Notes under the pieces: generated by a model
What the model was told of the DNA's origin: nothing
Seen by the model: the letters and a program-made list of their open reading frames with translations, nothing else
Databases searched by the model: none
Virus record (IMG/VR): IMGVR_UViG_3300036790_000296
Location: 1 to 63,397 of that record
Length of the DNA: 63,397 nt
Source: a virus
Strand: one strand, 5' to 3'
Made by a program: the position numbers and the translations under genes
Part shown: positions 917 through 28,865 of the stretch, piece by piece
Numbering within the stretch: position 1 is the first letter of the stretch
How the letters are laid out: the number at the start of each line of letters is the position of its first letter

Positions 917-960
917 TCGCGCACACTCGGCGAATTGGAAACTATACATGAAACAACCAC
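917..960. repeat. 29-bp direct repeat copy 2 plus 14-bp block: decayed duplicate of gene 259..594
   Basis: 917..945 equals 298..326 and 947..960 equals 592..605. On the minus strand the order is start-codon region of gene 259..594 joined almost directly to its internal segment, as if codons 2 to about 88 had been deleted from a duplicate. The stop codon of gene 942..1133 now lies in this remnant. Confidence 0.6.
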
Positions 961-1133
961 AGTACAAACGCCAGAAAGGCTATTCCTAGCGTAACGCCTA
1001 GCGCAAACCAGTCCACTTTTGTGAACGCATACAGGTCACGTGGTTGCGCATAAGCATCGTCGTGGTATATGCTATACGTATCAGGCTTCCTGGGCTTGAC
1101 GCGTATAAAGCGCTCTTTCGTGTTGCTCGCCAT
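942..1133 (-). CDS. Small C-tail-anchored membrane protein
   Basis: 63 residues; ATG at 1133 follows AAGGAG. The N-terminal 40 residues are basic and hydrophilic (RVKPRKPDTYS), followed by one hydrophobic segment (about 44-61) at the very C-terminus, so it is probably inserted in the inner membrane facing the cytoplasm. Two more membrane proteins follow upstream (1137..1328 and 1330..1425). The last codons overlap the decayed repeat at 917..960, so the original C-terminus may have been altered. Confidence 0.75.
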   Translation of the reverse strand: MASNTKERFIRVKPRKPDTYSIYHDDAYAQPRDLYAFTKVDWFALGVTLGIAFLAFVLWLFHV

Positions 1134-1136
1134 TGT

Positions 1137-1328
1137 TTACTCCTTGTCTTTAGGAACACGGCAATATTTACATGTCCACGAAATTGCTAGGAGAAGGGCT
1201 ATAACCCATGTTCCCATAACCCATCCGCGCCATTCCGTAAGGTACACCGTGCCGCCAAGTATAGCCAGCGCCCATATAAGCGAGCATACTTCACAAATAG
1301 CAAGTGGAACTGGGCTCCAATTTTTCAT
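1137..1328 (-). CDS. Small two-helix membrane protein
   Basis: 63 residues with two hydrophobic segments (about 9-28 and 36-50) and a C-terminal CKYC pair followed by a basic tail. The start lies right after the stop of 1330..1425. Membrane location is inferred from hydrophobicity. It is one of a run of three tiny membrane proteins in the early operon, a gene class often involved in host takeover or superinfection exclusion; nothing in the sequence proves such a role. Confidence 0.75.
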   Translation of the reverse strand: MKNWSPVPLAICEVCSLIWALAILGGTVYLTEWRGWVMGTWVIALLLAISWTCKYCRVPKDKE

Positions 1329-1329
1329 T

Positions 1330-1425
1330 TTACACTCCCATTCCTAGTATGTAGCCAATAACAAGCCCGAACAGAAACACAGCAACAACCGCATCCCAGC
1401 GAACGTAAGGTGCTGCACGCATCAT
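1330..1425 (-). CDS. 31-residue single-span membrane peptide
   Basis: Short gene starting with a double ATG; the ATGA at 1422..1425 overlaps the stop of 1422..1673. After MMRAAPYVRW comes one strongly hydrophobic helix rich in Val, Phe and Gly up to the end. The tight ATGA overlap upstream and the start of 1137..1328 two bases after its stop support translation as part of the operon. Confidence 0.7.
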   Translation of the reverse strand: MMRAAPYVRWDAVVAVFLFGLVIGYILGMGV

Positions 1426-7208: not shown

Positions 7209-8666
7209 TCAGGTCCAGCCCCCCGCACCCACTTTTGGTTTATTCGTCCGGTTTGGCGCGCGTAAGCGCTTGCCGATGAAATCCATCATCCCACCATGCA
7301 CAATTAGCGCTGCGTATTGGAGACAGTCCGCGACGTGCGAGAAGCCTTCCTTGTCGTTTTTTTCCGGCTTAGGTTTAAGACCGCCTTGCTTGGTTTTAGC
7401 GAAGCGATAACCTCCTGACATAGCGCGGCAGAGCATTGGGCAGCCAGCACGGTTTATAAGGAGAGTAGGTCCACCGTTTGTTTGCCGAGTCAATAAGGCT
7501 TCAACTGCTCTAAGCCTTGGATCAATGTCGTTTGTAGGCGCCGGAAACGCCGGTAGGCCAAGTCGTTTGAGCGCATCAAAGCAGCTTTCTTCAGCAACGC
7601 TGCCTTTTGCCACACCAGCAGGGTCGCCAACGACGGCGATTTTAAATCCGAGGTATTTTTCTGACAGGAGTTTTGGTTTGAGCGATTGCTGGACATGCTT
7701 TTCAAGTCCTGTGTTGGTGCCTGCTACTTCTTCGTGAACCAGTAACCGCCCCATGTGATCGGGTTGGCATATAAGCGACCACGGGTTACGCCCAAAATCC
7801 TGGGCGACGAGTACAGGGTATCCGGGTATAAGGCTTGTTTCGTCTACAATGTGGAAGTTGGAGCGGAATGATTGTTTGAATACAGCCATGCCGGATGGGT
7901 CGTCCCCATATTCGGCTTTGACGTACCGGCGTACCCAATCGCTGTCTTCCCCGTACATTTCGACAAATCGTTCATAATACTTTCTTCCCTGTGCTATCCG
8001 AACCGGGTGGTTCAGCGGAAGTTTCATTGTGGCTTCGGTTTGCACCAAATAGTTCAAGTTTTCGGCGTTCGGCGAGAGCCCTGAAGGTTGGATAAATTTC
8101 TGCCAGTTCGGCGGGAGATTTTCCAGGAATTGGTGCCATGGGGTCATCTCCGTCGGCATATTCGTGTCCGCAATCATACCATGCCATGTTGGCGCACCAC
8201 GCTTCCCACTTGGATATCTCCCTAACCGTCCAGAGATAGGCCCAATCACGTCCAAGTCCATCTCGATACACTCCGACAGCCACGCACCCGTCAATTGCAT
8301 AGATAGTAACCGAGCTTGATCCGCTGCGTCTTCTAACGGGATGAACACCCATTCGGACACCACATTATTGAAGTTAATGTGAAACGTGTTTTCCGATACT
8401 TTCCACTGCCCAAGTCCCGATAGCCACGACTCACAGTCTTTGAGAACCGTGTCTTTAAGTTGCTTCAGTGTTTGCCTTACAATAGCAAAGCGCGTGTAAC
8501 GGAAGCCATCTAGCGCCGATGTCTGCATGAGCGAGCGGCGCAGTAGCTCAATTACAGCGCTTGTGGTTTTCCCCGACCCAACCGGACCGCCTATAATCCG
8601 TCCGAAGGCTTCCGACTTCATAAAGGCGGCGCAGGTTGGCGGTGCTTCGTAGGCTAAGTCAGCCAT
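7209..8666 (-). CDS. terL: Terminase large subunit
   Basis: 485 residues, normal length. Motor domain: Walker A GGPVGSGKT at 26-34, Walker B-like AWLSECIE at 128-135 with the catalytic Glu. C-terminal RNase H-like nuclease: VLVAQDFGRNP gives the first Asp, AVVGDPAG the second and HVADCLQYAAL the last. It drives DNA packaging into the prohead and cuts the concatemer. It is the last gene of the leftward packaging island, opposite in direction to the portal it docks to. Confidence 0.92.
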   Translation of the reverse strand: MADLAYEAPPTCAAFMKSEAFGRIIGGPVGSGKTTSAVIELLRRSLMQTSALDGFRYTRFAIVRQTLKQLKDTVLKDCESWLSGLGQWKVSENTFHINFNNVVSEWVFIPLEDAADQARLLSMQLTGAWLSECIEMDLDVIGPISGRLGRYPSGKRGAPTWHGMIADTNMPTEMTPWHQFLENLPPNWQKFIQPSGLSPNAENLNYLVQTEATMKLPLNHPVRIAQGRKYYERFVEMYGEDSDWVRRYVKAEYGDDPSGMAVFKQSFRSNFHIVDETSLIPGYPVLVAQDFGRNPWSLICQPDHMGRLLVHEEVAGTNTGLEKHVQQSLKPKLLSEKYLGFKIAVVGDPAGVAKGSVAEESCFDALKRLGLPAFPAPTNDIDPRLRAVEALLTRQTNGGPTLLINRAGCPMLCRAMSGGYRFAKTKQGGLKPKPEKNDKEGFSHVADCLQYAALIVHGGMMDFIGKRLRAPNRTNKPKVGAGGWT

Positions 8667-8686: not shown

Positions 8687-9793
8687 TTATTCTTGCCACC
8701 CTACCCACACTTTTTCGCCAGGCGCGACTTTTTTCTTTTCGAGGTAGACTTGCCAGTGGGCTGTGATGCCGTGTTCGGGGTGGGAGAACCAGAGCGCTTG
8801 GGAAGGACGGCTGTAGGGGGCACGTAGAGCCAGCCTTGCGAAGTCGTTATACCCAATGAGCGCGTTATTGACGATAACACCTGGGAACGTGAGATATTGG
8901 TGCCAATGTCCCATGATAATCGTATCGAAGTCCCGCCCGATTTGCGCTTCACTACGGCCAACCTTAATGGCTCCCCGCATAATGGGACCCATTGCGCCGA
9001 TGATGCCATCACCACCTTTAACGCCGAGAGCGTCCCCATGGGTGAGAAGATATCTATGTCTAAATACGGAGAAGTAGGCATCGGTTTCTCCCGGAATGAG
9101 GAATTGCACATTACGTGATGCACGAAAGTAGCGCTCTAGGTTGCAGTATATATTCCACTCGTGGGATGTGTAAACCCGTTGTTTCATGCGGGGTTTTTTA
9201 GTGGAGCGTCCGTGGTTTCCGACAACACACGGTACAAACAGTTTACCAAATTTGGTTGCCATCTGGTCCAGTGCTGCGCCTATGATATCAGTTAGGTCGT
9301 TAATGGCTTGTTGCGGTGTTCTGTCATTTGTGGCAACAAGTTCGTCGTGTATATCACCCGTAATCATATCGCCGCCTAAACACACTACGGCACCAGGGTA
9401 TGCTATACGTGAGGACCCCATATGGTTGTACGCCAAATCAATCGTAGAGTTCACTAGCTTCTTGACGCGCGCTTTTGCTATTTTGTGGTTGAACTCGTTC
9501 ACGCCAGCCACTTCGTCAGGGTCAATAACTTCACCATAGTGCCAATCCGACCATATTGTCATTGGGCACCCCCTTTGCCCATTGCTGCCGCCTGCGCCGT
9601 TAAGCCATTTGGGTGGTTCGGGTGTACGCGCCGCTAGCCCATATATGCCGGTTCGGATGGTTTCCGCTGTATCGTTTTCACGGCGTATTTGTTCTACGGT
9701 GCGCTTGTAACTAGTTAACTGAGCATTTTGTTTGCGAATAATTTCTGCGGCGTCAAAAAGTCTGTCGGCATCAGTTTTTAGATGTACGGGCAT
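8687..9793 (-). CDS. Calcineurin-like metallophosphoesterase
   Basis: 368 residues. Metal-binding motifs in the canonical order: SDWHYGE (D-x-H), LGGDMITG (GD), VVGNHGR (GNH), LTHGD and MGHWHQY (GHxH). The N-terminal 50 residues form a coiled region. Related enzymes hydrolyse phosphodiesters or phosphomonoesters. Its place between the putative small and large terminase genes suggests action on DNA ends during packaging, which is inference. ATG at 9793 has GGAG 8 nt upstream, inside the overlapping repeat-peptide gene. Confidence 0.85.
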   Translation of the reverse strand: MPVHLKTDADRLFDAAEIIRKQNAQLTSYKRTVEQIRRENDTAETIRTGIYGLAARTPEPPKWLNGAGGSNGQRGCPMTIWSDWHYGEVIDPDEVAGVNEFNHKIAKARVKKLVNSTIDLAYNHMGSSRIAYPGAVVCLGGDMITGDIHDELVATNDRTPQQAINDLTDIIGAALDQMATKFGKLFVPCVVGNHGRSTKKPRMKQRVYTSHEWNIYCNLERYFRASRNVQFLIPGETDAYFSVFRHRYLLTHGDALGVKGGDGIIGAMGPIMRGAIKVGRSEAQIGRDFDTIIMGHWHQYLTFPGVIVNNALIGYNDFARLALRAPYSRPSQALWFSHPEHGITAHWQVYLEKKKVAPGEKVWVGWQE

Positions 9794-10007
9794 TTGTGTA
9801 TCTCCGTTTTCGTAAAATAGTTTTTATGGAATGGCTGTCGCGCCGCTCGCTTTCTTTTCCAAGCGGCGATTTTTTATACCTACTATTTGCTTGCGCCCGC
9901 GCTAAGGAGTGGTTGTACCGGTATATTCTTTGCTGGTCCTTCGGGGAATGGTCGTATCGGTATTTCCGTTGTTTCCCTTTCGGAGAATGGTTGTATTTCC
10001 ACAGCAC
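9771..10007 (-). CDS. Overlapping basic 13-residue-repeat peptide
   Basis: 78 residues if GTG at 10007 is used. Nearly the whole chain is five or six 13-residue units of the type RYxHSPKGKxRxx (RYDHSPKDQQRIY, RYNHSLARAQANS, RYKKSPLGKESER). Very basic, so nucleic-acid binding is likely. The 3' half fills the 89-bp gap before the phosphoesterase gene and overlaps its start by 23 nt. The 5' half lies in a different frame of the 3' end of gene 9883..10539. The open frame reaches back to 10238, so the exact start is uncertain. Confidence 0.55.
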   Translation of the reverse strand: MLWKYNHSPKGKQRKYRYDHSPKDQQRIYRYNHSLARAQANSRYKKSPLGKESERRDSHSIKTILRKRRYTNARTSKN

Positions 10008-10539
10008 CCTCAATCGTCTTTCCCGAGCCGACAGTTTCGGTAAACTGCTGTTTGTCGGCCCCGAGATTGATTGTGATGGTGAATTTTTCTCCCGGTAATG
10101 CGCTTCTGGTGTCTTCTCCAATGCCCGCAAGCTTGGTGAACATGGTGGCAGCCTGGACGACTGCGGGGAGGGCTTCTTTTTCACTTCGCATCCTTTTTCC
10201 GAGGATAACAAGACTATCTTCCAGAATTGCGGCCGCACCTAGTTTTATGCGTTGCGGTATAGAAAGAGCACTATTCCACTCGATAGTCGAGGCGTCAAGT
10301 GCTTTCTTGAAAAATACATTGGGTAAAACGTGTTCACGGTATTGGTCTTCGGTCATTCCAAACGCGCCTACCACTTCCGCAAGCGGGCGATAGTTACGCG
10401 CAATTTCACCTGCCAGCTTTGCCAGTTCAGAAGCCGTTAAAGAGGCAGGGGCTTTTGTTATGATCGCGGGCGGCGCTACGATTGGGGGTGGCATTACCGT
10501 CGCGGTAACAAGACCGGTTTCAACACGTTCATCGTCCAT
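9883..10539 (-). CDS. Putative terminase small subunit / packaging protein
   Basis: 218 residues; ATG at 10539. Helical core about 30-130 (LTASELAKLAGEIARNYRPL, AEVVGAFGMTEDQYREHVLP) reads as a helix-turn-helix followed by an oligomerisation region, as in small terminases. The C-terminal 38 residues are made of 13-residue units (EIQPFSERETTE, IPIRPFPEGPAKN) that share their DNA with the overlapping basic repeat peptide. Assignment rests on position upstream of TerL and on the fold impression, so moderate confidence. Confidence 0.6.
   Translation of the reverse strand: MDDERVETGLVTATVMPPPIVAPPAIITKAPASLTASELAKLAGEIARNYRPLAEVVGAFGMTEDQYREHVLPNVFFKKALDASTIEWNSALSIPQRIKLGAAAILEDSLVILGKRMRSEKEALPAVVQAATMFTKLAGIGEDTRSALPGEKFTITINLGADKQQFTETVGSGKTIEGAVEIQPFSERETTEIPIRPFPEGPAKNIPVQPLLSAGASK
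9890..10003. repeat. 39-bp imperfect tandem repeats read in two frames
   Basis: About three units of 39 bp. In one frame they give 13-residue Pro/Glu-rich units at the end of the putative small terminase; in the other they give 13-residue basic units. Units continue in the basic frame alone down to about 9795. Confidence 0.65.
10494..10508. repeat. Dispersed palindrome TTACCG-TCG-CGGTAA
   Basis: Exact copy, 3-nt spacer, in codons 11-15 of gene 9883..10539. Confidence 0.9.
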
Positions 10540-12945: not shown

Positions 12946-13749
12946 ATGCTTGATTTTCACTTTATTTCCGGCCTGCCAAGGTCAGGGTCTACATTGCTTG
13001 CGTCTATTTTGCGCCAAAATCCTGCCTATACGGCGTCTATTCAAACTCCTATTGCGGCCATTATTGTGGCCTTACTGCCTGAATTGTCACGCACAAACGA
13101 GAGCGCGATATTTTTTACAGACGAACAACGTTTGCGGATATTAAGAGGCTTATTCTCTGCATATTACGCGGAGAATACGGTTGATGTAGTGTTCGATAAC
13201 AACCGCAAATGGTGCGCACATATTGCGCTGTTAGCAGATTTATTTCCGCAGTCCAAAGTTATATGCTGTGTCCGCCCCGCGTCTGGAATTGTGGATAGTA
13301 TAGAGCGGCTAGTCCGAAACAATCCGACAAGAATTAGCCCCATATATGGATCACAGTCCAATACTACGGTCTATAACCGGGTGCAAACCTATATGGCTCC
13401 TGATGGTGTGGTGGGGTATTCCTGGAATGCATTGCGTGATGCGTTTTACGGGGAGCACAAAGACCGCCTTGTTATTGTGCGCTACGATGATTTAGCAAGA
13501 TTTCCAGGAAAAGTCATTGAGACAGTTTCCAAAGAACTCGGATTGGCCCCGTTTCCGTATAAATTTAACGCCATAGAACCCATCCCTGGTACGGACGCTT
13601 TTGACGCCGCCCTTGACCTGCCTGGATTGCATGATTTGAAGCCTGAAGTGAAATACGAACCGCGCACTACCATACTGCCCCCTGATATTTTTAATAGCCT
13701 GCCGAAACCATTTTGGAACGTTAATAGAGCCGCAACTAATCCAAGGTAG
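12946..13749 (+). CDS. Sulfotransferase
   Basis: 267 residues. The PAPS-binding 5' loop GLPRSGSTLL is at 9-18; the 3' phosphate region is CCVRPASGIVDSIERLV; later IVRYDDLARFPGKVIETV matches the conserved sulfotransferase helix. Such enzymes move sulfate from PAPS to a hydroxyl of sugar, Tyr or small molecule. Placed 3 bp after the portal gene and before collagen-like and glycosyltransferase genes, it probably sulfates a virion glycan or fibre residue (inference). Confidence 0.85.
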   Translation: MLDFHFISGLPRSGSTLLASILRQNPAYTASIQTPIAAIIVALLPELSRTNESAIFFTDEQRLRILRGLFSAYYAENTVDVVFDNNRKWCAHIALLADLFPQSKVICCVRPASGIVDSIERLVRNNPTRISPIYGSQSNTTVYNRVQTYMAPDGVVGYSWNALRDAFYGEHKDRLVIVRYDDLARFPGKVIETVSKELGLAPFPYKFNAIEPIPGTDAFDAALDLPGLHDLKPEVKYEPRTTILPPDIFNSLPKPFWNVNRAATNPR

Positions 13750-13782: not shown

Positions 13783-14418
13783 ATGGCTGGCGCTACTGGC
13801 ATTTTGTCCGCACCGCAGGGCGATTACGACCGAAATATTGTTGGGTTTGTTCTTGAACAAGTTGTCGCCTCTGTAAACGCAGGTATTTTACTTGGTGGTA
13901 CTGGTCCTACCGGTGCAAATATTGGCGGGAATACTGGACCTACTGGGCCTACCGGTTCTACCGGTACTGGTCCTGCTGGTCCTGCTGGCCCCGCCGCGCC
14001 ACAAGGTCCTACTGGTCCCGTAGGCTCGAATACCGGCCCGCAAGGCGGACCTGGTTATCGAGGCGCAACCGGTCCCGCTGGTCTAACGGGAAATACAGGT
14101 ATTACTGGAAACCAAGGCCCGGCTGGTGCTGCTGGCGCGATTGGCCCGGCTGGTGGTGGCACTGGACAAACTGGTGCTACTGGTAGCGTTACAGGCCCGG
14201 CTGGTGCTGTAGGCGCAACTGGTCCTACCGGAGCTACGGGCGCAACTGGTCCTACCGGGCATACTGGATACGGCGGGTTGAAGGGACCTTCGGGCGCGAC
14301 TGGGCCTACCGGAAACTTTAATACATTGTTTATTGCGCCGCTCTCTAGCCCGGGTGTAACCGGACAGGTGTGGAACAAGAACGGCGTGCTCACGATTTCA
14401 GCGGGACCAAACACATGA
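13783..14418 (+). CDS. Collagen-like virion protein 1
   Basis: 211 residues. Unique N-terminal 35 residues ([22 protein letters not shown], helical, likely attachment or trimer seed). Then about 135 residues of Gly-X-Y with frequent GPTG and GATG triplets, then a C-terminal beta cap ([18 protein letters not shown]). Expected to be a trimeric rod. The caps of proteins 1 and 2 are clearly related. Thr in Y positions offers many hydroxyls for glycosylation by the neighbouring enzymes. Confidence 0.85.
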
Positions 14419-15017
14419 CCGTTTCGCGCGATCAAGATGTGGACGCAAATCGGGTTGGGCCGATTTTGAAAGAACTTGTTGACGCTGTTAATGCTGGCGG
14501 CATTGGCGGCGCTACAGGTACGACTGGACCTACGGGTATTGGTGGCGGTAAGACCGGCCCTACTGGCCCTACTGGTACAATTACTGGTCCTACTGGGTAT
14601 ACAGGTGGCGCTGCTGGGCCTATTGGTCCTACAGGATTAACAGGCGCATCTGGCGCGGGTGGTGTTAATGGCCCGCAAGGTGCTCCTGGTTTGACTGGTC
14701 CTGTTGGGCCTACTGGTGGTATTGGCCCAACGCCCCCTGGTGGCGCTGCAAGCGGCGCGACCGGTCCTACTGGTCCTGTAGGCGGCACGACGGGGAAAAC
14801 CGGTTACGCTGGCGCAACTGGAGTTACGGGGCCAACCGGTATAGGAACAGTTGCTGGTTCTACGGGCGCAACCGGTTCTACGGGCGCAACCGGTGGTAAT
14901 GGTCCGACTGGAGTTAGCTTTACGGTTTTTGCACCGCCCACGGTTAGCCCCGGCGTAACTGGCCAAGTTTGGAGCAATGGCGGCATTTTGACAGTTTCAC
15001 ACGGACCGGGGACGTAA
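14415..15017 (+). CDS. Collagen-like virion protein 2
   Basis: 200 residues; ATG overlaps the stop of protein 1 (ATGA). Same three-part plan: helical N-terminus with [15 protein letters not shown], about 130 residues of Gly-X-Y, and a C-terminal cap [18 protein letters not shown] nearly matching protein 1. Clearly a tandem duplicate that has diverged in the repeat. Probably a second rod of the same fibre or decoration. Confidence 0.85.
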
Positions 15018-15027
15018 AGGCATCGCT

Positions 15028-15639
15028 ATGGCAATCGCTCCTTCTCCTAATGTTTCCCCGAGCACGTATGACGACAACCTTATTCCGTCGATCATCTCGC
15101 AGGTTGCGAATGTCATTAATCAGAATGCCGTAACGGGGCCGACTGGAAAAGCTGGCCCTGCCGGGTCTACTGGCGTGACTGGTTCTACTGGTCCTACTGG
15201 TGTGGGCGTTAGCGGCCCTTACGGCGGCCCCACTGGATTTACTGGGCCAACTGGCCCTGTAGGTTATATGGGCAATTCCGGTGCGACGGGTTACACTGGC
15301 CCGACTGGTATCACTGGAAACACAGGCGGCACTGGTCTTGTTGGTCCATCTACGTTTACGGGTCCTACTGGACCAACTAACGTTACGGGGTCTACGGGAC
15401 CAACAGGTACGCAAGGTTTGACTGGTCCGGCTGGTTCTGCTGGTCCCACTGGTCCCACTGGACAGCAAGGTGCAACCGGTTCTGCGGGCGCTCTTGGGGC
15501 AATTGGCCCTATTCGCAATAGCATTCTTCAGCTGCCTATAGTTGATCCTAAGCAGCCTGGTGCTTTGTGGTGGAATGTGCCGCTTGGTTTTACCGGCCCG
15601 GCAATTGCTGTTTCCCCGGGTACGCCGTACGGCGGATAA
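15028..15639 (+). CDS. Collagen-like virion protein 3
   Basis: 203 residues. N-terminus [20 protein letters not shown] is helical, parallel to proteins 1 and 2; Gly-X-Y region about 38-165; C-terminal cap is more divergent ([20 protein letters not shown]) but keeps the W and the final SPG turn. Third member of the tandem set. Confidence 0.85.
15590..15604. repeat. TTACCG palindrome, one mismatch (TTACCG-GCC-CGGCAA)
   Basis: One base off in the right arm, 3-nt spacer, near the 3' end of collagen-like gene 3. Confidence 0.55.
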
Positions 15640-15697: not shown

Positions 15698-17674
15698 ATG
15701 GCGCGCATTTGCCTAAATATGATAGTCCGCAATGAGAGCGCGAGAATTGTTCGTGCTATTCAAAGTGTTGCGCCATATATTTCGTGCTACGCCATTACGG
15801 ATACAGGTAGCACGGACAACACGGTTGAAATTATCCAAAAGTATTTTGCGGACTTGGAAATTCCCGGGGAAATATCTTCCTGTGAATTTGTGGACTGGTC
15901 CCAGGCACGTAATTTTGCACTGGCGAGAGCCCGCTTTTTGCCTATTCAATATGACTACATTCTGCTTATGGACGCAGACATGGAGTTGAAAGTCTTGAAT
16001 AAGGGGTTTAATAACGGTTTGATTGGGCGCTCCTATGATATGTTTCAACAGGGCGGCTCGTTAAAGTACATCAATCGCCGCCTCGTGCGCCGGGACCAGA
16101 CTGGCGTGTATATGGGCGTTACGCACGAGTATTTGGATGTGGTGGGGGATGCGTGTGTTCCAGCCGAGCATGCTTATTTTCTGGACCACGCAGATGGCGC
16201 AAACCGGCCGGAAAAATTCAAGCGGGATATTAGGCTTCTTGAGAAAGCGTTGATAGCGGAGCCTAATAACGGCAGGTATTTTTACTACCTCGCCCAATCA
16301 TACCGCGATGCAGGGAAACCTGCTAACGCTGCGAAATGGTATAAGAAGCGGGTTGACCTTGGCGGCTGGGACGAGGAAACGTGGAGCGCGCAGCAGAACT
16401 ACGCCCAATGCCTATTAGAGCTTAAAGACGAGGCGGGTTTTGTACTCAATATGCAATTAGCGTATAACATGCGCCCCTCCCGCGCTGAAACGTTATATGA
16501 TCTTGCCCATTTTTACCGAGAAAAGGGAATGAACGCGGCTTCGGTATTATTTTCGGAAGCTGGATTGCAGATACCCTATTCCCAGGACGCCTTGTTTGTG
16601 AGCGATTTTGTTTATACGTCTGGCCTTATGGAGGAATTTTCCATATGCGCTTTCTATTTGCCAGACAAGCGGGCACGTGGGTTTGACTTGACTAACAAAT
16701 TAGCACTTAAAAAAGGGCCGTATGGGCACCAGCGCGAAACCGCACGCAATAACCTGTACCACTATCTTCCGGTTTTAAAAGATATTGTGTCTACATTTGA
16801 ATGGCAGAAAATAGATTTTACGGCTCCAACAGGTTATACCGCTATGAACCCTTCTGTAGCGGCGCACCGCAATCGTTTGTATACGATTGTGCGAACGGTA
16901 AATTACAAGATTGTGGATGGGCGCTACGAAATTTTGGGGACGGATGGGACTGCAAATGACAGTAACCCTATTCGTACTCGTAATTTTCTTTTGGGTATTG
17001 ACGCCCATTTGAAAACTACAGATGCGCGTGAGTTGTTACCGCCCGGTAATATGCCTGAGCCGCTGTTTAAAGCTGTTCTTGGGTTTGAAGATATGCGGTT
17101 GTTTTCGTCTGGCTACGATTTAAATATATCAGCGTGCGTTCGCGAAATGAACGCGGATGGGTATTGCGAGCAGGTATACGCTCGTATTGACGGGCACTTT
17201 CTTACAAACGTAACCCGTATGCTGCGTACACCCCGGGAATATGAAAAGAACTGGATGCCGATTGTTAACGGTCCGGACGCGCGGTATATGTATCGTTTAG
17301 GCGAGGTAGTTGACCATACAGGCAAGACTGTTGAAAAGACGGAACCAGAACAAGATTGCCGACATATGAGTGGTGGTTCGCAGCTTATACCACACCAAGG
17401 CGGCTGGCTCTGCCTTGTGCACGAGGCACGGTTTATCCCCGGTACGCAGTTAAGGTATTACCAGCACCGGTTTGTGACGTTTGACTCATATTTTGCTGTG
17501 CGGCGTATCACCAAGCCGTTTGTTCTCCACGAAAAACAAATCGAGTTTGTGGCTGGCGCGGTGTGGCATCCGGTGTATCCAAAGCTAGTGATTTCATATG
17601 GCTATCAGGATAAAGAAGCGCGCCTTGCAACAATTGATATGGATCAACTAGAGAGGTTTTTATGGCAAAGCTAA
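15698..17674 (+). CDS. GT2 glycosyltransferase fused to TPR and beta-propeller domains
   Basis: 658 residues. Residues 1-110 are a GT-A (family 2) domain with the NMIVRNES start, DTGSTDNT at 35-42 and the metal-binding DADME at 92-96. Residues about 180-300 read as TPR helices (FYYLAQSYRDAGKPANAAKWY). The C-terminal 300 residues have the repeating beta pattern seen in GH43/GH130-like five-bladed propellers (GGSQLIPHQGGWLCLVHEA, KQIEFVAGAVWHP). The GT half should transfer a sugar to a virion or glycan acceptor. A functional propeller enzyme is uncertain. Confidence 0.8.
   Translation: MARICLNMIVRNESARIVRAIQSVAPYISCYAITDTGSTDNTVEIIQKYFADLEIPGEISSCEFVDWSQARNFALARARFLPIQYDYILLMDADMELKVLNKGFNNGLIGRSYDMFQQGGSLKYINRRLVRRDQTGVYMGVTHEYLDVVGDACVPAEHAYFLDHADGANRPEKFKRDIRLLEKALIAEPNNGRYFYYLAQSYRDAGKPANAAKWYKKRVDLGGWDEETWSAQQNYAQCLLELKDEAGFVLNMQLAYNMRPSRAETLYDLAHFYREKGMNAASVLFSEAGLQIPYSQDALFVSDFVYTSGLMEEFSICAFYLPDKRARGFDLTNKLALKKGPYGHQRETARNNLYHYLPVLKDIVSTFEWQKIDFTAPTGYTAMNPSVAAHRNRLYTIVRTVNYKIVDGRYEILGTDGTANDSNPIRTRNFLLGIDAHLKTTDARELLPPGNMPEPLFKAVLGFEDMRLFSSGYDLNISACVREMNADGYCEQVYARIDGHFLTNVTRMLRTPREYEKNWMPIVNGPDARYMYRLGEVVDHTGKTVEKTEPEQDCRHMSGGSQLIPHQGGWLCLVHEARFIPGTQLRYYQHRFVTFDSYFAVRRITKPFVLHEKQIEFVAGAVWHPVYPKLVISYGYQDKEARLATIDMDQLERFLWQS
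17036..17049. repeat. Dispersed palindrome TTACCG-CC-CGGTAA
   Basis: Exact copy, 2-nt spacer, inside the GT2 fusion gene (Leu-Pro-Pro-Gly codons). Confidence 0.9.
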
Positions 17675-18312
17675 AGATAGTTACGGGATACGTGCCTATT
17701 GCTAACCATCCACGGTCGGCGCAAGAGTACGGTAGACTGGGAGAAAAGCTCCAAGAGCTTAAAGCCCCGGTGCAACCATTTTATGAGTTGTTGGGTACGT
17801 GTTGGTTGACTAGGTTAGTAGACCAGCTTCCGTTCGAGCCTACTTGGTCTAAGGGGGATAACCCACAAAAAAACACACTTGCGTATCAGTGTGCGACGCA
17901 TCAAAAGTTTGAATGGCTTTACCGATCTTCGCAGATGGACGATAAATCCGATGTGTTCATATGGGTGGATTACGGTTTGGCGCATATCCCAGGCTGGTCG
18001 GCAGCCGGTATGAACGAGTTTTTAAGCCGTGTGAAGAAAAACGATTTTGCTGTTCCCGGGTGCTGGGGCAAACAAGATGTACACGACAGTACACCTAATT
18101 GGCGCTTTTGCGGCGGCCTTATGGTTGTGCCGCGAAAGTACGTGCAAGATTTAAAGAACGGTATCCAAGCTATCACCATGATTAACGTGATGCAGACTAA
18201 ACATATAACGTGGGATGTGAACAGTATGGCGCACCTAGAAGCGCAAAACAAACTTCCCATTAGGTGGTATAAAGCGGACCACGATAAATCCATGTTCGAA
18301 AACTATAGGTAG
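17662..18312 (+). CDS. HtrL/YibB-like protein, probable glycan enzyme, copy 1
   Basis: 216 residues; ATG follows AGAGAGG and overlaps the GT2 gene by 13 nt. Resembles HtrL_YibB proteins of polysaccharide loci: KIVTGYVPI start, DVFIWVDYGLAHI (the W-[IV]-D-[YF]-G signature) and NWRFCGGLMVVPR. The family is thought to hold GT-A-like transferases, but function is poorly known. Paralogous to 21044..21727. Confidence 0.7.
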   Translation: MAKLKIVTGYVPIANHPRSAQEYGRLGEKLQELKAPVQPFYELLGTCWLTRLVDQLPFEPTWSKGDNPQKNTLAYQCATHQKFEWLYRSSQMDDKSDVFIWVDYGLAHIPGWSAAGMNEFLSRVKKNDFAVPGCWGKQDVHDSTPNWRFCGGLMVVPRKYVQDLKNGIQAITMINVMQTKHITWDVNSMAHLEAQNKLPIRWYKADHDKSMFENYR

Positions 18313-18316
18313 CCCA

Positions 18317-19336
18317 ATGAAAAAGACAGCGCTTATCACCGGTATTGGCGGCTCTATAGGCTGCCATGTTATGGTACACCTGCTCCACAATACAGATTGG
18401 GATATTGTGGGGATTGACAGCTTTCGCCACAAAGGTTTGATGGATCGGGTGCATGTGATGCTGGATGGCCACCCGGAATATTATGCACGCATGCGAATGC
18501 ATACGCACGATTTGCGCGCACCCTTGTCTCAAATCCTTATGGATCGCATTGGCAAGATTGACTATATACTTAATCTTGCAGCGCTTCCGGATGTTTTTGA
18601 TAGTATTGAAAATCCTGTGCCGTTTGTAATATCCAATACGCAAATGGTTTTGAATGTGCTGGAGTTTGCGCGGTACACAAGGCCGGACGCTTTCTTGCAC
18701 GTATCAACAGACGAGGTATACGGCCCAACGGACGGAAAAACATTCCATAAAGAATGGGACCCCATTCTGCCGTCTAACCCGTATTCGGCTTCCAAAGTGG
18801 CGCAAGAAGCAATTGCTATATCATACTGGCGTGCCTACAATTTGCCGCTTATAATTGTGAACCTTATGAATAATTTTGGCGAAATGCAGGCTCCTGACAA
18901 GTTTCCGTCTATTATTCAGCGGAAGCTGGCGCGTGGAGAAAAAATAACCATCCACGGTAGCCCCGATGCAATCGGGACGCGGTTCTATATTCACTCTCGT
19001 AATTCTGCCGATGCTTTTTTGTTTCTACTGAAAAACATAGAACCACACCTGCATATAGACGGTAGTATGGATAAGCCAGATAGGTATAATATTGTGGGCG
19101 ACAGGCAGGTGGGAAACGAAGAACTAGTGAATTTTATTGCGGGCGTTCTTGGGGTAAAGGCGCATTACGAATTTGAAGATTTCAAAGTTACACGTCCGGG
19201 TCATGATAGGCATTATGGGCTTGACGGGGCGAAATTATTTTCTCTTGGGTGGAAGTCTCCTGTGTCGTTTGAAGACTCTATGCGAAACACAGTGAATTGG
19301 GTTCGCGATCATCCTGAATGGTTGGAGCCAAAGTAA
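18317..19336 (+). CDS. NAD-dependent sugar epimerase/dehydratase
   Basis: 339 residues, an extended short-chain dehydrogenase. Rossmann loop GIGGSIG at 10-16, ID at the end of beta 2, STDEVYG with the catalytic Thr/Asp/Glu-type residues, and YSASKVAQE carrying the Tyr-x3-Lys pair. Closest in feel to dTDP-glucose 4,6-dehydratases and UDP-sugar epimerases; substrate cannot be told. It prepares a nucleotide sugar for the phage transferases. The gene after it starts within its stop codon. Confidence 0.85.
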   Translation: MKKTALITGIGGSIGCHVMVHLLHNTDWDIVGIDSFRHKGLMDRVHVMLDGHPEYYARMRMHTHDLRAPLSQILMDRIGKIDYILNLAALPDVFDSIENPVPFVISNTQMVLNVLEFARYTRPDAFLHVSTDEVYGPTDGKTFHKEWDPILPSNPYSASKVAQEAIAISYWRAYNLPLIIVNLMNNFGEMQAPDKFPSIIQRKLARGEKITIHGSPDAIGTRFYIHSRNSADAFLFLLKNIEPHLHIDGSMDKPDRYNIVGDRQVGNEELVNFIAGVLGVKAHYEFEDFKVTRPGHDRHYGLDGAKLFSLGWKSPVSFEDSMRNTVNWVRDHPEWLEPK

Positions 19337-20430
19337 TGCGCATAGCAGTAGTAGGTGCGGGGTTTGCTGGGGCTACGATTGCGGAGAGACTTGGCCGACT
19401 CCATTCGGTATATGTGTTTGAAGCGCGCCACCATGTAGGGGGTAATGCATATACCGAGCGCGACTATAGAACTGGTGTTATGAAGCATGTGTATGGGCCA
19501 CATATATTTCATACGGCGGACGAAGATGTGCGGGCTTACGTAGGGCGATTTGATTTTTTTAAGCCGTTTGAATTGCGTATGAAGTCCATACACGATGGGC
19601 ACGTGTACTCATTTCCTATAAACCTCCATACAATTAACCAGTTTTGGAAGGACTGTATGACGCCTGTTGCTGCTGCGGATGTACTTAAGCGGCACGGTTA
19701 CCGCGCTTGTCCTGGTGAGCCGTACAATTTTAAAGACGCGGCTTGTAAAAAAGTGGGGGAAGAATTGTATGAAGCATTTTTGGAGGGGTACACCAGGAAG
19801 CAATGGGGGGTAGAACCCGATCAATTGCCTGCTTCTTTGGCGGATCGTCTTCCGGTTCGGTTTGATTACGAGGACAATAAGTATCCACCTACTGAATTTC
19901 AGGGTATTCCAATTGAGGGGTATACGCGCGTAATAGAGAGAATGTTGCAGGATATTCCAGTGCACTTAGGTACAAAATTCATAAGGGACCATGCTACAGA
20001 GTATGACCACGTATTTTATAGCGGCCCGCTTGATGCGTGGTTTGGCTATCAGTATGGGCGGCTTCGTTACCGTACGGTAAAATTCATTGACGAAGTTACT
20101 GACGGCGATGCCCAAGGATGCGCTGTTATTGCTTGCCCTGATATGGAGCAACCGTGGACACGTATGACGGAGCATAAGCACCTTGCTCCATGGGAGGCAC
20201 ACGATAAAACAATCCTTTCGTTTGAGTACAGTTCTGATTGCCATGAAGGCGATGAACCTATGTACCCTATGCGCCTTGAAAAAGACAAGCTTATGCTAGA
20301 CCAGTATAAAGAGCTTGCTGCTGGCGAAAAAAGGGTTACGTTTATAGGCCGTCTTGGTACTTATCGGTATATTGATATGGACCAGACGATTGCCGAGTCT
20401 TTAAAAGTTGCTGCGGAGTTCTTGCGATGA
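19336..20430 (+). CDS. glf: UDP-galactopyranose mutase
   Basis: 364 residues from ATG at 19336 (TAATG overlap). FAD-binding GAGFAGATIAERL at 7-19, GGNAY, and the family block VYGPHIFHT; later KQWGVEPDQLP and the C-terminal GRLGTYRYIDMDQTI that closes the FAD site. Length is normal for the family. Converts UDP-galactopyranose to UDP-galactofuranose, so the virion or host glycan built here probably contains galactofuranose. Confidence 0.92.
   Translation: MRIAVVGAGFAGATIAERLGRLHSVYVFEARHHVGGNAYTERDYRTGVMKHVYGPHIFHTADEDVRAYVGRFDFFKPFELRMKSIHDGHVYSFPINLHTINQFWKDCMTPVAAADVLKRHGYRACPGEPYNFKDAACKKVGEELYEAFLEGYTRKQWGVEPDQLPASLADRLPVRFDYEDNKYPPTEFQGIPIEGYTRVIERMLQDIPVHLGTKFIRDHATEYDHVFYSGPLDAWFGYQYGRLRYRTVKFIDEVTDGDAQGCAVIACPDMEQPWTRMTEHKHLAPWEAHDKTILSFEYSSDCHEGDEPMYPMRLEKDKLMLDQYKELAAGEKRVTFIGRLGTYRYIDMDQTIAESLKVAAEFLR
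20067..20080. repeat. Dispersed palindrome TTACCG-TA-CGGTAA
   Basis: Exact and fully symmetrical 14-mer inside the UDP-galactopyranose mutase gene. Confidence 0.9.
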
Positions 20431-21053
20431 AAACGCTTGTCGCTACTATAACATGTTGGCGGGATGAAGATAATGGCCGTAATGACGGTATAAGGGATAC
20501 GTGGCTTAGGTGGGGTTATCTTATAGATCACGTATTTTTCCTCGGATATGAAGAACGACATGTCCCTCAAGGAGCTATTATGTTCAGTGGAGGCTCTAGT
20601 AGAATTTCCGATGACTATGATGCTATCCCATTCAAGGTACATAGAATTTGCCAATATGCGGCTTTTTACGGGTACGATGATTTATTTATTAGCGATGTAG
20701 ACACATACGTAGCGGTGCCCCTTCTTCTAAATTCTCGTGTGGGGGATTATGCAGGATGGCGCTGTGACGAAGGCCACGCTGCGGGCGGTAATGGATATTG
20801 GTTAAGCCGAAAGGCCATGTTAGCACTTAGCAATTCCGCCCCTTACCCAGGATACCAAGATATATGGGTTGGCGAAGCCCTTAAGGAGGCTGGTATTCCC
20901 CTCGTGCATGATCCTCGCTTTATAGGTGGCGTTCCAGAGAAATATGTACCCGGCACCATTTCCGCCCATCTCGGCCGCGCTACTGGGACATTTGACCCGC
21001 AATGGATGCGAGACTACCACAAGACGTGTCTGGAGGTTTTGCCATGCGGGTAA
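20427..21053 (+). CDS. Fringe/GT31-like galactosyltransferase
   Basis: 208 residues, ATGA overlap with the mutase gene. Pattern of beta-1,3-glycosyltransferases: RDTWLRWG near the N-terminus, DDLFISDVDTYVAV with the DxD metal site, GGNGYWLSRKAM (GGAGYxLS-type acceptor loop) and DIWVGEALKEAG (ED-VG helix). Fringe-like enzymes are rare in phages. Probably adds hexose or N-acetylhexosamine to the growing glycan. Confidence 0.75.
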   Translation: MKTLVATITCWRDEDNGRNDGIRDTWLRWGYLIDHVFFLGYEERHVPQGAIMFSGGSSRISDDYDAIPFKVHRICQYAAFYGYDDLFISDVDTYVAVPLLLNSRVGDYAGWRCDEGHAAGGNGYWLSRKAMLALSNSAPYPGYQDIWVGEALKEAGIPLVHDPRFIGGVPEKYVPGTISAHLGRATGTFDPQWMRDYHKTCLEVLPCG

Positions 21054-21727
21054 AAGTTGTTTCGGGGTATATACCACTTCCCCTTCTTAACATAACGGAA
21101 GAACGGTTTCGCGCTTTAGGGGATGAACTAGCGTGCGCATTGCCATGTCCGTATCGTTTTTTTGAAGACGACACTATACAGGATTGTTGGGTCCACAGGT
21201 TTTTGAACTTCTTGCCATTTAGCGTTAGCCCTTCAGACCCAAACCCGGCTAAAGACAGGTTTGCTACCTCTAATATTATGTTGATGTCAAATATTGTTAT
21301 GCACCAGAAGTATGAGTGGCTTGTCCACACTGCCATAGAAGACCAAGCCCCAGATGTTTTTGTGTGGATTGACTATGGTGTAATGAAACAGCCCAATATG
21401 AAACCAGAGGTTATTACTGATTTTATTAAGAAATTGGAAGAAAAAGATAGTTGCCCTTGCGTATACGCCCCCGGAATTCGAGGTATTGAACCAATAGATG
21501 ACACTCAATCTTGGGATCGTTTCTGTGGTTCTGTTGTGATTGTACCCCGCAATCATTTGGTTAATCTGTGTAGCGCTATGAAAATGCACCAAATGCAGCA
21601 TATTATGGAGCACCATACTGTAACTATTGAGTCTAACACGCTTGCGCATATTGAGCAAAAAAAATTCTTTCCAATTTGCTGGTATAAGGCGTGGTGGGGC
21701 GCGGAAATGTTCATGAATTTACCTTAA
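21044..21727 (+). CDS. HtrL/YibB-like protein, copy 2
   Basis: 227 residues from ATG at 21044, preceded by GGAGG and overlapping the previous gene. Shares with 17662..18312 the start KVVSGYIPL, the DVFVWIDYGVM signature, DRFCGSVVIVPR and the C-terminal IxWYKA. The two copies flank the three sugar enzymes, so they may add different sugars with the same fold. Confidence 0.7.
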   Translation: MRVKVVSGYIPLPLLNITEERFRALGDELACALPCPYRFFEDDTIQDCWVHRFLNFLPFSVSPSDPNPAKDRFATSNIMLMSNIVMHQKYEWLVHTAIEDQAPDVFVWIDYGVMKQPNMKPEVITDFIKKLEEKDSCPCVYAPGIRGIEPIDDTQSWDRFCGSVVIVPRNHLVNLCSAMKMHQMQHIMEHHTVTIESNTLAHIEQKKFFPICWYKAWWGAEMFMNLP

Positions 21728-26372: not shown

Positions 26373-27326
26373 ATGGCTGTTGAAGTTCAAGGCCCCGCAT
26401 TAGTAATGGCACAACCGGTTGTTGTGTCAAATGGATTTACAGGCCCTACTGGTCCAAGCGGCGGCCCTACTGGTCCAACCGGGATTGTTGGCAGCGTAGG
26501 CGTAACCGGTCCTCTAGGTCTTACTGGTCCAACGGGGTCAATTGGTACTATTGGACGAACTGGGCCTACTGGAATAACCGGCGCAATTGGGCCTCCAGGA
26601 AATTCAATCACTGGCCCTACGGGCCAACAAGGTGCAACTGGTTCGCTTACTGGACCTACTGGAGTTACCGGGCCTGATGGAGCCGCTGCCAATACAGGGT
26701 CAACAGGGCCAGCGGGTCCACTTGGAACGGGTCCTACGGGTCCGGCTGGTGTTGCTTCTAGCACCGGGGCAACTGGGTCTACCGGCTATACAGGCCCTAC
26801 TGGTCCTACGGGAATAACCGGCCCTACGGGTGCACAGGGGCAATCTACAAATACTGGCGCAACCGGCCCCCAAGGTATTGCCGGGGTTGCCGCGAATACT
26901 GGCGCAACTGGATATACTGGACCTACTGGCACTGTTGGCACAACTGGACCTACTGGCACAGCGGGTAGCACAGGTGTAACAGGAGCAACAGGGTTTCTGT
27001 CTGTAAACGCGGGTGTTTCTACTAAATCGGGTAATTACACACTTGTTCTTTCTGATGCTAACACGATAATAAATATGGCGGCCCCAGCACCTGGGGGGAG
27101 TAGTACGCTAACTATTCCGGCTAATGTCACAGTTCCTTTTACGCCAGGAACGTATATACTGTTGCAGTGCACCAATAACGGTAGTGGTGGAACTGTGGTA
27201 TTGGTTGAGACTGCGGGCGTTTCTTTGTATGGTTGGAGAAACTCGTCCAATATGGCAGCCGGTGCTGGGCAAATAGGTGGCCTTCTATTGTTGTATGTTG
27301 GGTCTAATATATGGTTCGCATCATAA
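26373..27326 (+). CDS. Collagen-like fibre protein 4 with beta head
   Basis: 317 residues. N-terminal 20 residues of unique sequence, about 185 residues of Gly-X-Y (GPTGPTG, GATGSTG), then a C-terminal domain of about 110 residues ([33 protein letters not shown], ending [14 protein letters not shown]) that resembles phage fibre head domains. Likely a trimeric tail or head fibre. Confidence 0.85.
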
Positions 27327-27342
27327 GGATAGGGGTATCTGT

Positions 27343-27483
27343 ATGGAGTTTTCAGTGCCCAAGAAACTGGACGAATTTGATGTTCCTATTACAACCATGC
27401 GCACTCAAATTGTGCCGCCTGTGGATAAGATTGAGCGGTTGAGCGATAATGAAATAGCTGTGCGCCCCACAAAAAGAGACTGA
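27343..27483 (+). CDS. Small hypothetical fibre-region protein
   Basis: 46 residues from ATG at 27343. Acidic/basic mixed (KKLDEFDVPITTMRTQIV), with no clear ribosome site except GGGG 10 nt upstream. It sits between two collagen-like fibre genes with tight spacing, suggesting a linker or assembly peptide. Confidence 0.6.
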   Translation: MEFSVPKKLDEFDVPITTMRTQIVPPVDKIERLSDNEIAVRPTKRD

Positions 27484-27497
27484 TAGGGGAACCTTAG

Positions 27498-28865
27498 ATG
27501 CTGCTGGGGAGGGTTTTACAAAACGTTGGCGACAGTATTCAGCATACTGTTGACTACAGCGAATGGTTGGAGAAAGGGGAGGTTCTTCAGTCAGTTTCGT
27601 ATACTGTAGACTATGGCACCGCAACTGTTTCTAACGGTATATACTCACTCGATTTGAAAAAAGCCAAGTTTCTTTTGAATGGTGGAACGCTAGATGACCA
27701 GTTTAACATTATTGTTACTGCTATTACGTCATTTGGGCAAACACGCATCGACACTATTGGGGTAGCAGTTGAAACGAATGGTGGCCCTGTATTTCAATCT
27801 TCTAATCAGTCTCTCATGCTTTCTATTATGGGAGCTACTGGCGTTACTGGCAGCACTGGCGCAACTGGCCCATTTGGATCAGGGTCTACAGGTTCTACGG
27901 GGGTAACTGGCCCTGTCGGCATAACTGGGCCTACTGGAATAACCGGTCCTACTGGCGTAACTGGTGCTCAAGGTATTCAGGGTGTAACCGGTCCTACTGG
28001 CGTAACTGGTGCCCAAGGGACGGCAGGGAGTGCCACAAATACAGGTGCAACTGGCCCTACCGGTTCTACTGGTGTGGCGGGGATTGCATCTAATACCGGT
28101 GCAACCGGTCCAACTGGTGTTGCAGGTGCAGGTGGCGCGATTGGCGCAACCGGTCCTACTGGTGCAGCAGGTGGCGGCGGTGCGATTGGCGCAACCGGTC
28201 CTACTGGTGTTGCAGGTGCAGGTGGCGCGATTGGCGCAACCGGTCCTACTGGTGTTGCAGGTGTAGGTGGCGCGATTGGCGCAACCGGCCCTACAGGTGC
28301 TGTGGGTAGCGGCGGCGCGGTAGGTGCAACCGGGGCAACCGGACATACGGGGGCTACTGGCGCAACCGGAGCTACCGGTGCAGCAGGTGCTGCTAGTACG
28401 GTAACTGGACCAACAGGTAGCGGCGGCGCTGGCGGTGCCACTGGCCCAACTGGATCGTCTGCTTCTATAACTGGGGGGACTGGAGCAACAGCTACGGGTA
28501 ACTCACTTAGCGTTCAATCGCCCGCGCTTCTTAGGTATATATCCAGTACCCTTTTGGTTGGGTACACGTTTACACCATATAACGGGGGGACAGTTTCCTC
28601 TGGAACATACACGCCCGCCGCCGCAAACGGCAATTATCAATATTACACAAATAATGGCGCGCACACTTTGGCCAATCCTACGGCTGATTGCGCTATAGAT
28701 ATTTTGGTTACAAACGGGGCGAGCGCCGGAACTATCACCTTTTCTACTTTTACAGTTGGGTCTAATACGGGCGATACGCTTACGACAACAAACACGAATG
28801 TCTTTATTATTTCTATTCGTAGAATAAATGGCGTTTCCACGTATGTTGTAAAAGCGCTCCAATGA
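27498..28865 (+). CDS. Collagen-like fibre protein 5 with N-terminal beta module
   Basis: 455 residues. Residues 1-110 are a beta module ([35 protein letters not shown]) that recurs alone as gene 30576..30860. Residues about 112-335 are Gly-X-Y including five near-identical 15-residue units ([15 protein letters not shown]). Residues 340-455 form a C-terminal head. Probably a receptor fibre. Confidence 0.85.

Follow-up and report, generated by a model that had tools for sequence, protein, structure and literature searches.

A conserved basic-repeat gene read out of frame between a presumed small-terminase gene and a metallophosphoesterase gene in uncultured phages

Introduction

Viral overlapping genes, or overprinting (PMC8227390), use two frames of one stretch of DNA, with one of the two under stronger selection. 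Repeated basic S-P-K motifs are known from the SPK(K/R) repeats of sperm-specific histone H2B (PMC9903204), and basic-repeat proteins also occur among Endonuclease VII (PF02945) and HNH-like proteins, one of which, on the viral stretch L075, carries the same 13-residue units that are the subject of this report. Phage metallophosphoesterases annotated as exonucleases fall into phrog_284, phrog_7339, and phrog_704, and these families supply the partner gene of the locus described here. Here, we describe a 13-residue-repeat gene, REP, in the window, the whole 63,397-nucleotide stretch of viral DNA that was analyzed, which derives from an uncultured phage family. We found no literature on the repeat array or on its overlap with terS, and the gene is apparently undescribed so far. 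REP is liable to be missed at terminase loci because gene callers normally retain one frame, and the terS/REP overlap constitutes a natural test of which frame selection retains.

Results

The locus comprises the following features, given in coordinates of the window.

7209 to 8666, minus strand: large terminase (TerL); phrog_2, E=1.8e-24
8687 to 9793, minus strand: metallophosphoesterase of exonuclease type by profile (PE); motifs DWH, GDMI, GNHGR, HGD, and GHWH; phrog_284 exonuclease, E=4.9e-43
9771 to 9793, minus strand: 23 bp shared by the end of REP and the beginning of PE
9771 to 10238, minus strand: open frame of REP, the 13-residue-repeat protein; longest form 155 aa from the first GTG; +1 relative to TerS
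9804 to 9998, minus strand: five 13-residue units, KYNHSPKGKQRKY RYDHSPKDQQRIY RYNHSLARAQANS RYKKSPLGKESER RDSHSIKTILRKR
9883 to 9998, minus strand: portion of the array doubling as the TerS tail, 113 nt before the TerS stop
9883 to 10539, minus strand: TerS-like ORF, 218 aa; core conserved up to an INLG motif; 58-codon tail entering the array; phrog_36773, E=7.5e-11
10182 to 10195, minus strand: best candidate for the REP start, GTG 10184-10182 with Shine-Dalgarno-like AAGGA 10195-10191; predicted product 137 aa
10636 to 12942, plus strand: portal, SU10-like, divergent from TerS; PF23899, E=3.9e-9; phrog_332

The 218-aa ORF had been called a small terminase in the first-pass annotation, and its proximity to TerL and its size (about 150 to 220 aa expected) fit that label; its sole match is phrog_36773, whose function is unknown; Pfam and NCBIfam gave no match and PDB no significant one, and we keep the label as one presumed from gene position only. 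PE can be assigned to the exonuclease-type metallophosphoesterases by its profile and metal-site motifs, exonuclease activity being the PHROG annotation. Its metal-site residues (G140, G141, D142, G192, N193, H194, H252, H296, and H298) are invariant across 25 sequences, its fold matches are metallophosphoesterases, including an Mre11-DNA complex (4tug, E=1.7e-5), and its predicted structure has a mean pLDDT of 79.4.

Elsewhere in the window, a sulfotransferase-like gene (12946-13749, plus strand; PF13469, E=1.6e-14) directly follows the portal gene, and glycan genes lie within the structural region (15698-21727, plus strand), among them a glycosyltransferase (PF00535) and an NAD-epimerase/GDP-mannose dehydratase (PF16363, E=5e-39). 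Several proteins with collagen-like Gly-x-Thr/Pro repeats are encoded at 13783-15639 and 26373-28865 (plus strand), and an 18-bp repeat array of about 10 copies is found at 2793-2985 inside an ORF with NIRITI/NTRITG units.

As the first-pass annotation had proposed, the array is read in two frames, the second of which, +1 to TerS, holds regular basic units (five copies of 13 residues in the window, consensus RYDHSPKGRERRR) and continues beyond TerS into the first 23 bp of PE. Stops in this frame of relatives had been named as evidence that would refute the gene, and between codons -40 and +70 around the TerS INLG motif the 20 REP genomes hold 0, against about 34 expected from codon-shuffled TerS, a contrast weaker than 20 independent cases would give, as the genomes share ancestry. 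A comparable deficit is absent from 19 array-less TerS relatives, and partial stop depletion reaches further upstream too (-100 to -60). Within the closest group, changes at TerS position 3 dominate upstream of the INLG motif and switch, 5 to 10 codons past it, to TerS position 1, where the wobble base of REP codons falls; in the stretch of the array that codes for REP only, codon position 3 varies most (757 versus 527 and 469). Pairwise identities are 0.46-0.63 for TerS and 0.63-0.79 for REP, and in simulations of divergence they fit a model that constrains REP alone. The overlapping frame is thus stop-free beyond prediction and under selection at the amino acid level, and REP is a real, conserved, selected gene. 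The claim of regular units in both frames stands insofar as the TerS frame contains Pro/Glu units over the array (EIQPFSERETTE / IPIRPFPEGPAKN / IPVQPLLSAGASK), but because substitutions gather at the REP wobble position, what selection maintains in the overlap in relatives is mainly the repeat protein rather than the TerS tail. In most lineages TerS terminates inside the array, so its tail is for the most part REP DNA read a second time.

The phase of the two frames is itself conserved. Among relatives (53 found by TerL, with L002 added by a REP search), most of those with the order TerS-PE-TerL carry the array frame in +1 phase, from in or after the TerS tail to near the PE start. The frame is +1 to TerS in 43 of the 47 distinct loci holding TerS and at least three units, several of which are closely related, so that 47 is not a number of independent events. 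In the other four (L037, L070, L076, and L110) the array follows the TerS stop in another phase, with an ATG at that stop serving REP in L037, L070, and L076; L023 and L036 have degenerate versions of the array. The REP/PE overlap is short in nearly all relatives, and TerS tails span 28-71 codons in REP genomes versus 19-35 in non-REP genomes. Mapped onto the TerL tree, the REP label takes 5 changes, whereas shuffled labels take 12.8; this tree places the window and L003 next to the array-less L018 and L020.

The genomic company of the array was assessed with a DNA pattern of two consecutive units, searched in viral contigs without using PE or TerS, which returned 27 viral stretches where rough arithmetic gives a chance expectation well under one; the 27 include near-copies and stretches on contigs already in the relative set. 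PE lies directly downstream of the array in 22 of the 25 assessable stretches, the stretches lacking it there being L056, L065, and L075. About ten array-PE stretches have no TerS upstream, namely L057, L059, L068, L069, L078, L079, L080, and L081, along with L061 and L074, in which the array is followed by PEs of another PHROG (7339). A PE-based search found the array in 57 of 75 PE loci. For PE loci without a detected TerS the array is present in 3 of 18 and absent in 15 of 18; PE does not need REP everywhere.

Arrays also occur in other settings. The same 13-residue units are fused in front of Endonuclease VII in L075 (PF02945, E=6.4e-17), and two bacterial MAG contigs bear arrays as well. 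L065 encodes at 917-1411 (minus strand) a further array protein, Cys-rich toward its N terminus, on the same contig as the L078 array-PE pair; on a Planctomycetota MAG contig (L083 4414-5190) a zinc-ribbon-like region, array units, and an HNH-like end can be seen by eye in one frame; and a second, stand-alone array gene lies between PE and TerL of the same phages at L004 5640-6008 and L027 2345-2641.

These neighborhoods bear on the role that the first-pass annotation had suggested, in which the basic peptide holds DNA during packaging. A packaging peptide acting with the terminase, for example by holding or bridging DNA for TerS/TerL, would fit the position of REP between TerS and TerL in most relatives found, and PE and REP could together form a packaging module, given that nucleases near terminases can be packaging parts, as PMC5304195 states for HNH endonucleases. 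We nevertheless consider it unlikely, as arrays go with PE in those stretches that lack an upstream TerS, and the examined TerS-TerL pairs without PE have no array. Because PE is the recurrent neighbor, also where no TerS is adjacent, we read REP as a putative helper of PE rather than as a packaging protein.

It is improbable that REP is instead a DNA-binding arm remaining from a former HNH/Endonuclease VII gene, or some other mobile array, retained for an unrelated role. Such an origin would agree with the presence of these units in the Endonuclease VII of L075 and in the zinc/HNH-like proteins of L065 and L083, and with the additional array genes of L004 and L027, but array-only genes adjoining PE are the commonest form found, and purifying selection would be unexpected for a mere remnant.

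The array and PE are missing together at the terminase locus in PE-less relatives. L018 and L020, which form the closest array-less lineage to the window, carry in place of PE an RNase_H_2-type exonuclease that has a zinc ribbon of its own (this type is recognized by Pfam in L018 and L040, with L020 and L031 alike by sequence), and loci of the L045-L053 type have nothing sizeable between TerS and TerL. L034 and L039 have an unrelated PE, of phrog_704, with an N-terminal extension and no array; Pfam finds HTH_8 in this extension in L039 (E=4.6e-5) and no HTH in that of L034. Two further nucleases were observed at such loci: an Endonuclease VII (PF02945, E=2.4e-16) between the phrog_704-type PE and TerL at L034 5658-5999, and a LAGLIDADG endonuclease (PF00961, E=3.8e-5) directly after TerS and ahead of an exonuclease gene at L051 2297-2734.

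Position 10007, where the first-pass annotation had begun the gene, is an in-frame GTG; a start that looks more convincing is the GTG at 10184, preceded at a distance of 6 nt by AAGGA (10191-10195). No REP start codon or ribosome-binding site is conserved across relatives, and candidates vary in position and codon. Every locus offers at least one ATG, GTG, or TTG, in some only far upstream or within the first units. In nine loci the REP frame opens only about 40-42 codons before the INLG motif, and in a few others it opens later, so that initiation in these loci lies downstream of the opening. In TerS-less contexts, e.g., L059 and L068, REP has its own ATG at the end of the upstream gene. We infer that REP initiates at a nonconserved codon inside terS, probably by internal initiation, and would run through the 3' end of terS in the +1 frame to stop just inside PE, with its translation probably coupled to that of PE. 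A conserved phase to TerS together with a nonconserved start codon could also be expected if REP were made only as a TerS-REP fusion through a programmed +1 (or -2) frameshift, a reading we regard as distinctly improbable: no slippery sequence common to the loci was seen by eye, each locus has a possible start codon, even if at times a distant one or one within the first units, and in four array loci the phase differs, an ATG being present at the TerS stop in three of these.

At the DNA level, the 39-bp repeat of the first-pass annotation survives as a regular 13-residue unit in the protein, but the array as DNA comprises a single 39-nt copy pair with 72% identity, and Tandem Repeats Finder called no repeat on it. 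The periodicity resides at the protein level, with DNA repetition weak. It is not due to chance, because synonymous codon shuffling with the TerS protein held fixed never recreated the units (0 of 1000 shuffles reached the observed unit score in each of seven genomes, by a scoring matrix that had been trained on these same array units) and because a six-frame scan of the window and the loci gathered by that stage confined clusters of at least three units to the TerS/PE array and two additional array genes adjoining TerL. Several well-studied phages have their pac sites within or next to terS, and the repeat spacing here is regular, but that the array is a cis-acting DNA element (e.g., a pac site of repeated TerS boxes) with the open frame as a by-product is barely credible given how dissimilar its DNA copies are, the concentration of variation at the REP wobble position, and the maintenance of the frame in TerS-less contexts too.

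Discussion

REP is strongly basic (23 K+R versus 5 D+E in 78 aa; pI 10.9), and a model built from 20 sequences has six helices, about one short helix per unit (mean pLDDT 95.6, pTM 0.62), with no PDB fold match. Searches against Pfam, PHROG, NCBIfam, PDB sequences, and PDB folds returned nothing notable, the weak viral fold matches being mostly of unknown function; Pfam and PHROG searches found no nuclease domain, and tblastn of REP in a phage collection gave no match. The predicted REP product is a string of short basic helices in which each 13-residue unit forms one helix; nucleic acid (DNA or RNA) is its most likely ligand, though the basic repeats could bind protein instead.

We propose that REP serves the adjacent phosphoesterase-type exonuclease, either as a detached substrate-binding part or as a delivery factor. 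Taken as a whole, the reading of REP as a real gene with an internal start in terS, coupled to PE and acting as its nucleic-acid-binding helper, has in our judgment an even chance of being correct. More tentatively, REP may represent a new class of nucleic-acid-binding solenoid made of single-helix 13-residue units, a separable exonuclease module (stand-alone or fused) that is lodged out of frame in the small-terminase gene of one large phage group, where a second gene shapes the end of terS. If REP binds nucleic acid, it would be an undescribed repeat module that is cheaply testable in vitro, and the terminase locus would be a slot for swapping cassettes of a nuclease and its binding part.

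Compared with described cases of overprinting (PMC8227390), here it is the conserved upstream gene whose tail seems secondary, a further reading of an array gene found on its own elsewhere, and the same +1 phase recurs across nearly all distinct loci. In contrast to Endonuclease VII and HNH-like proteins, REP stands alone before a metallophosphoesterase and has no nuclease domain, and whereas the phrog_704 PEs found here bear an N-terminal extension, with an HTH in L039, REP phages would have the proposed binding part as a protein of its own. The likeness to the SPK(K/R) repeats of histone H2B (PMC9903204), for which we claim no homology, extends to repeated basic S-P-K motifs, while the REP unit has SPKG, a 13-residue period, and a predicted helical structure.
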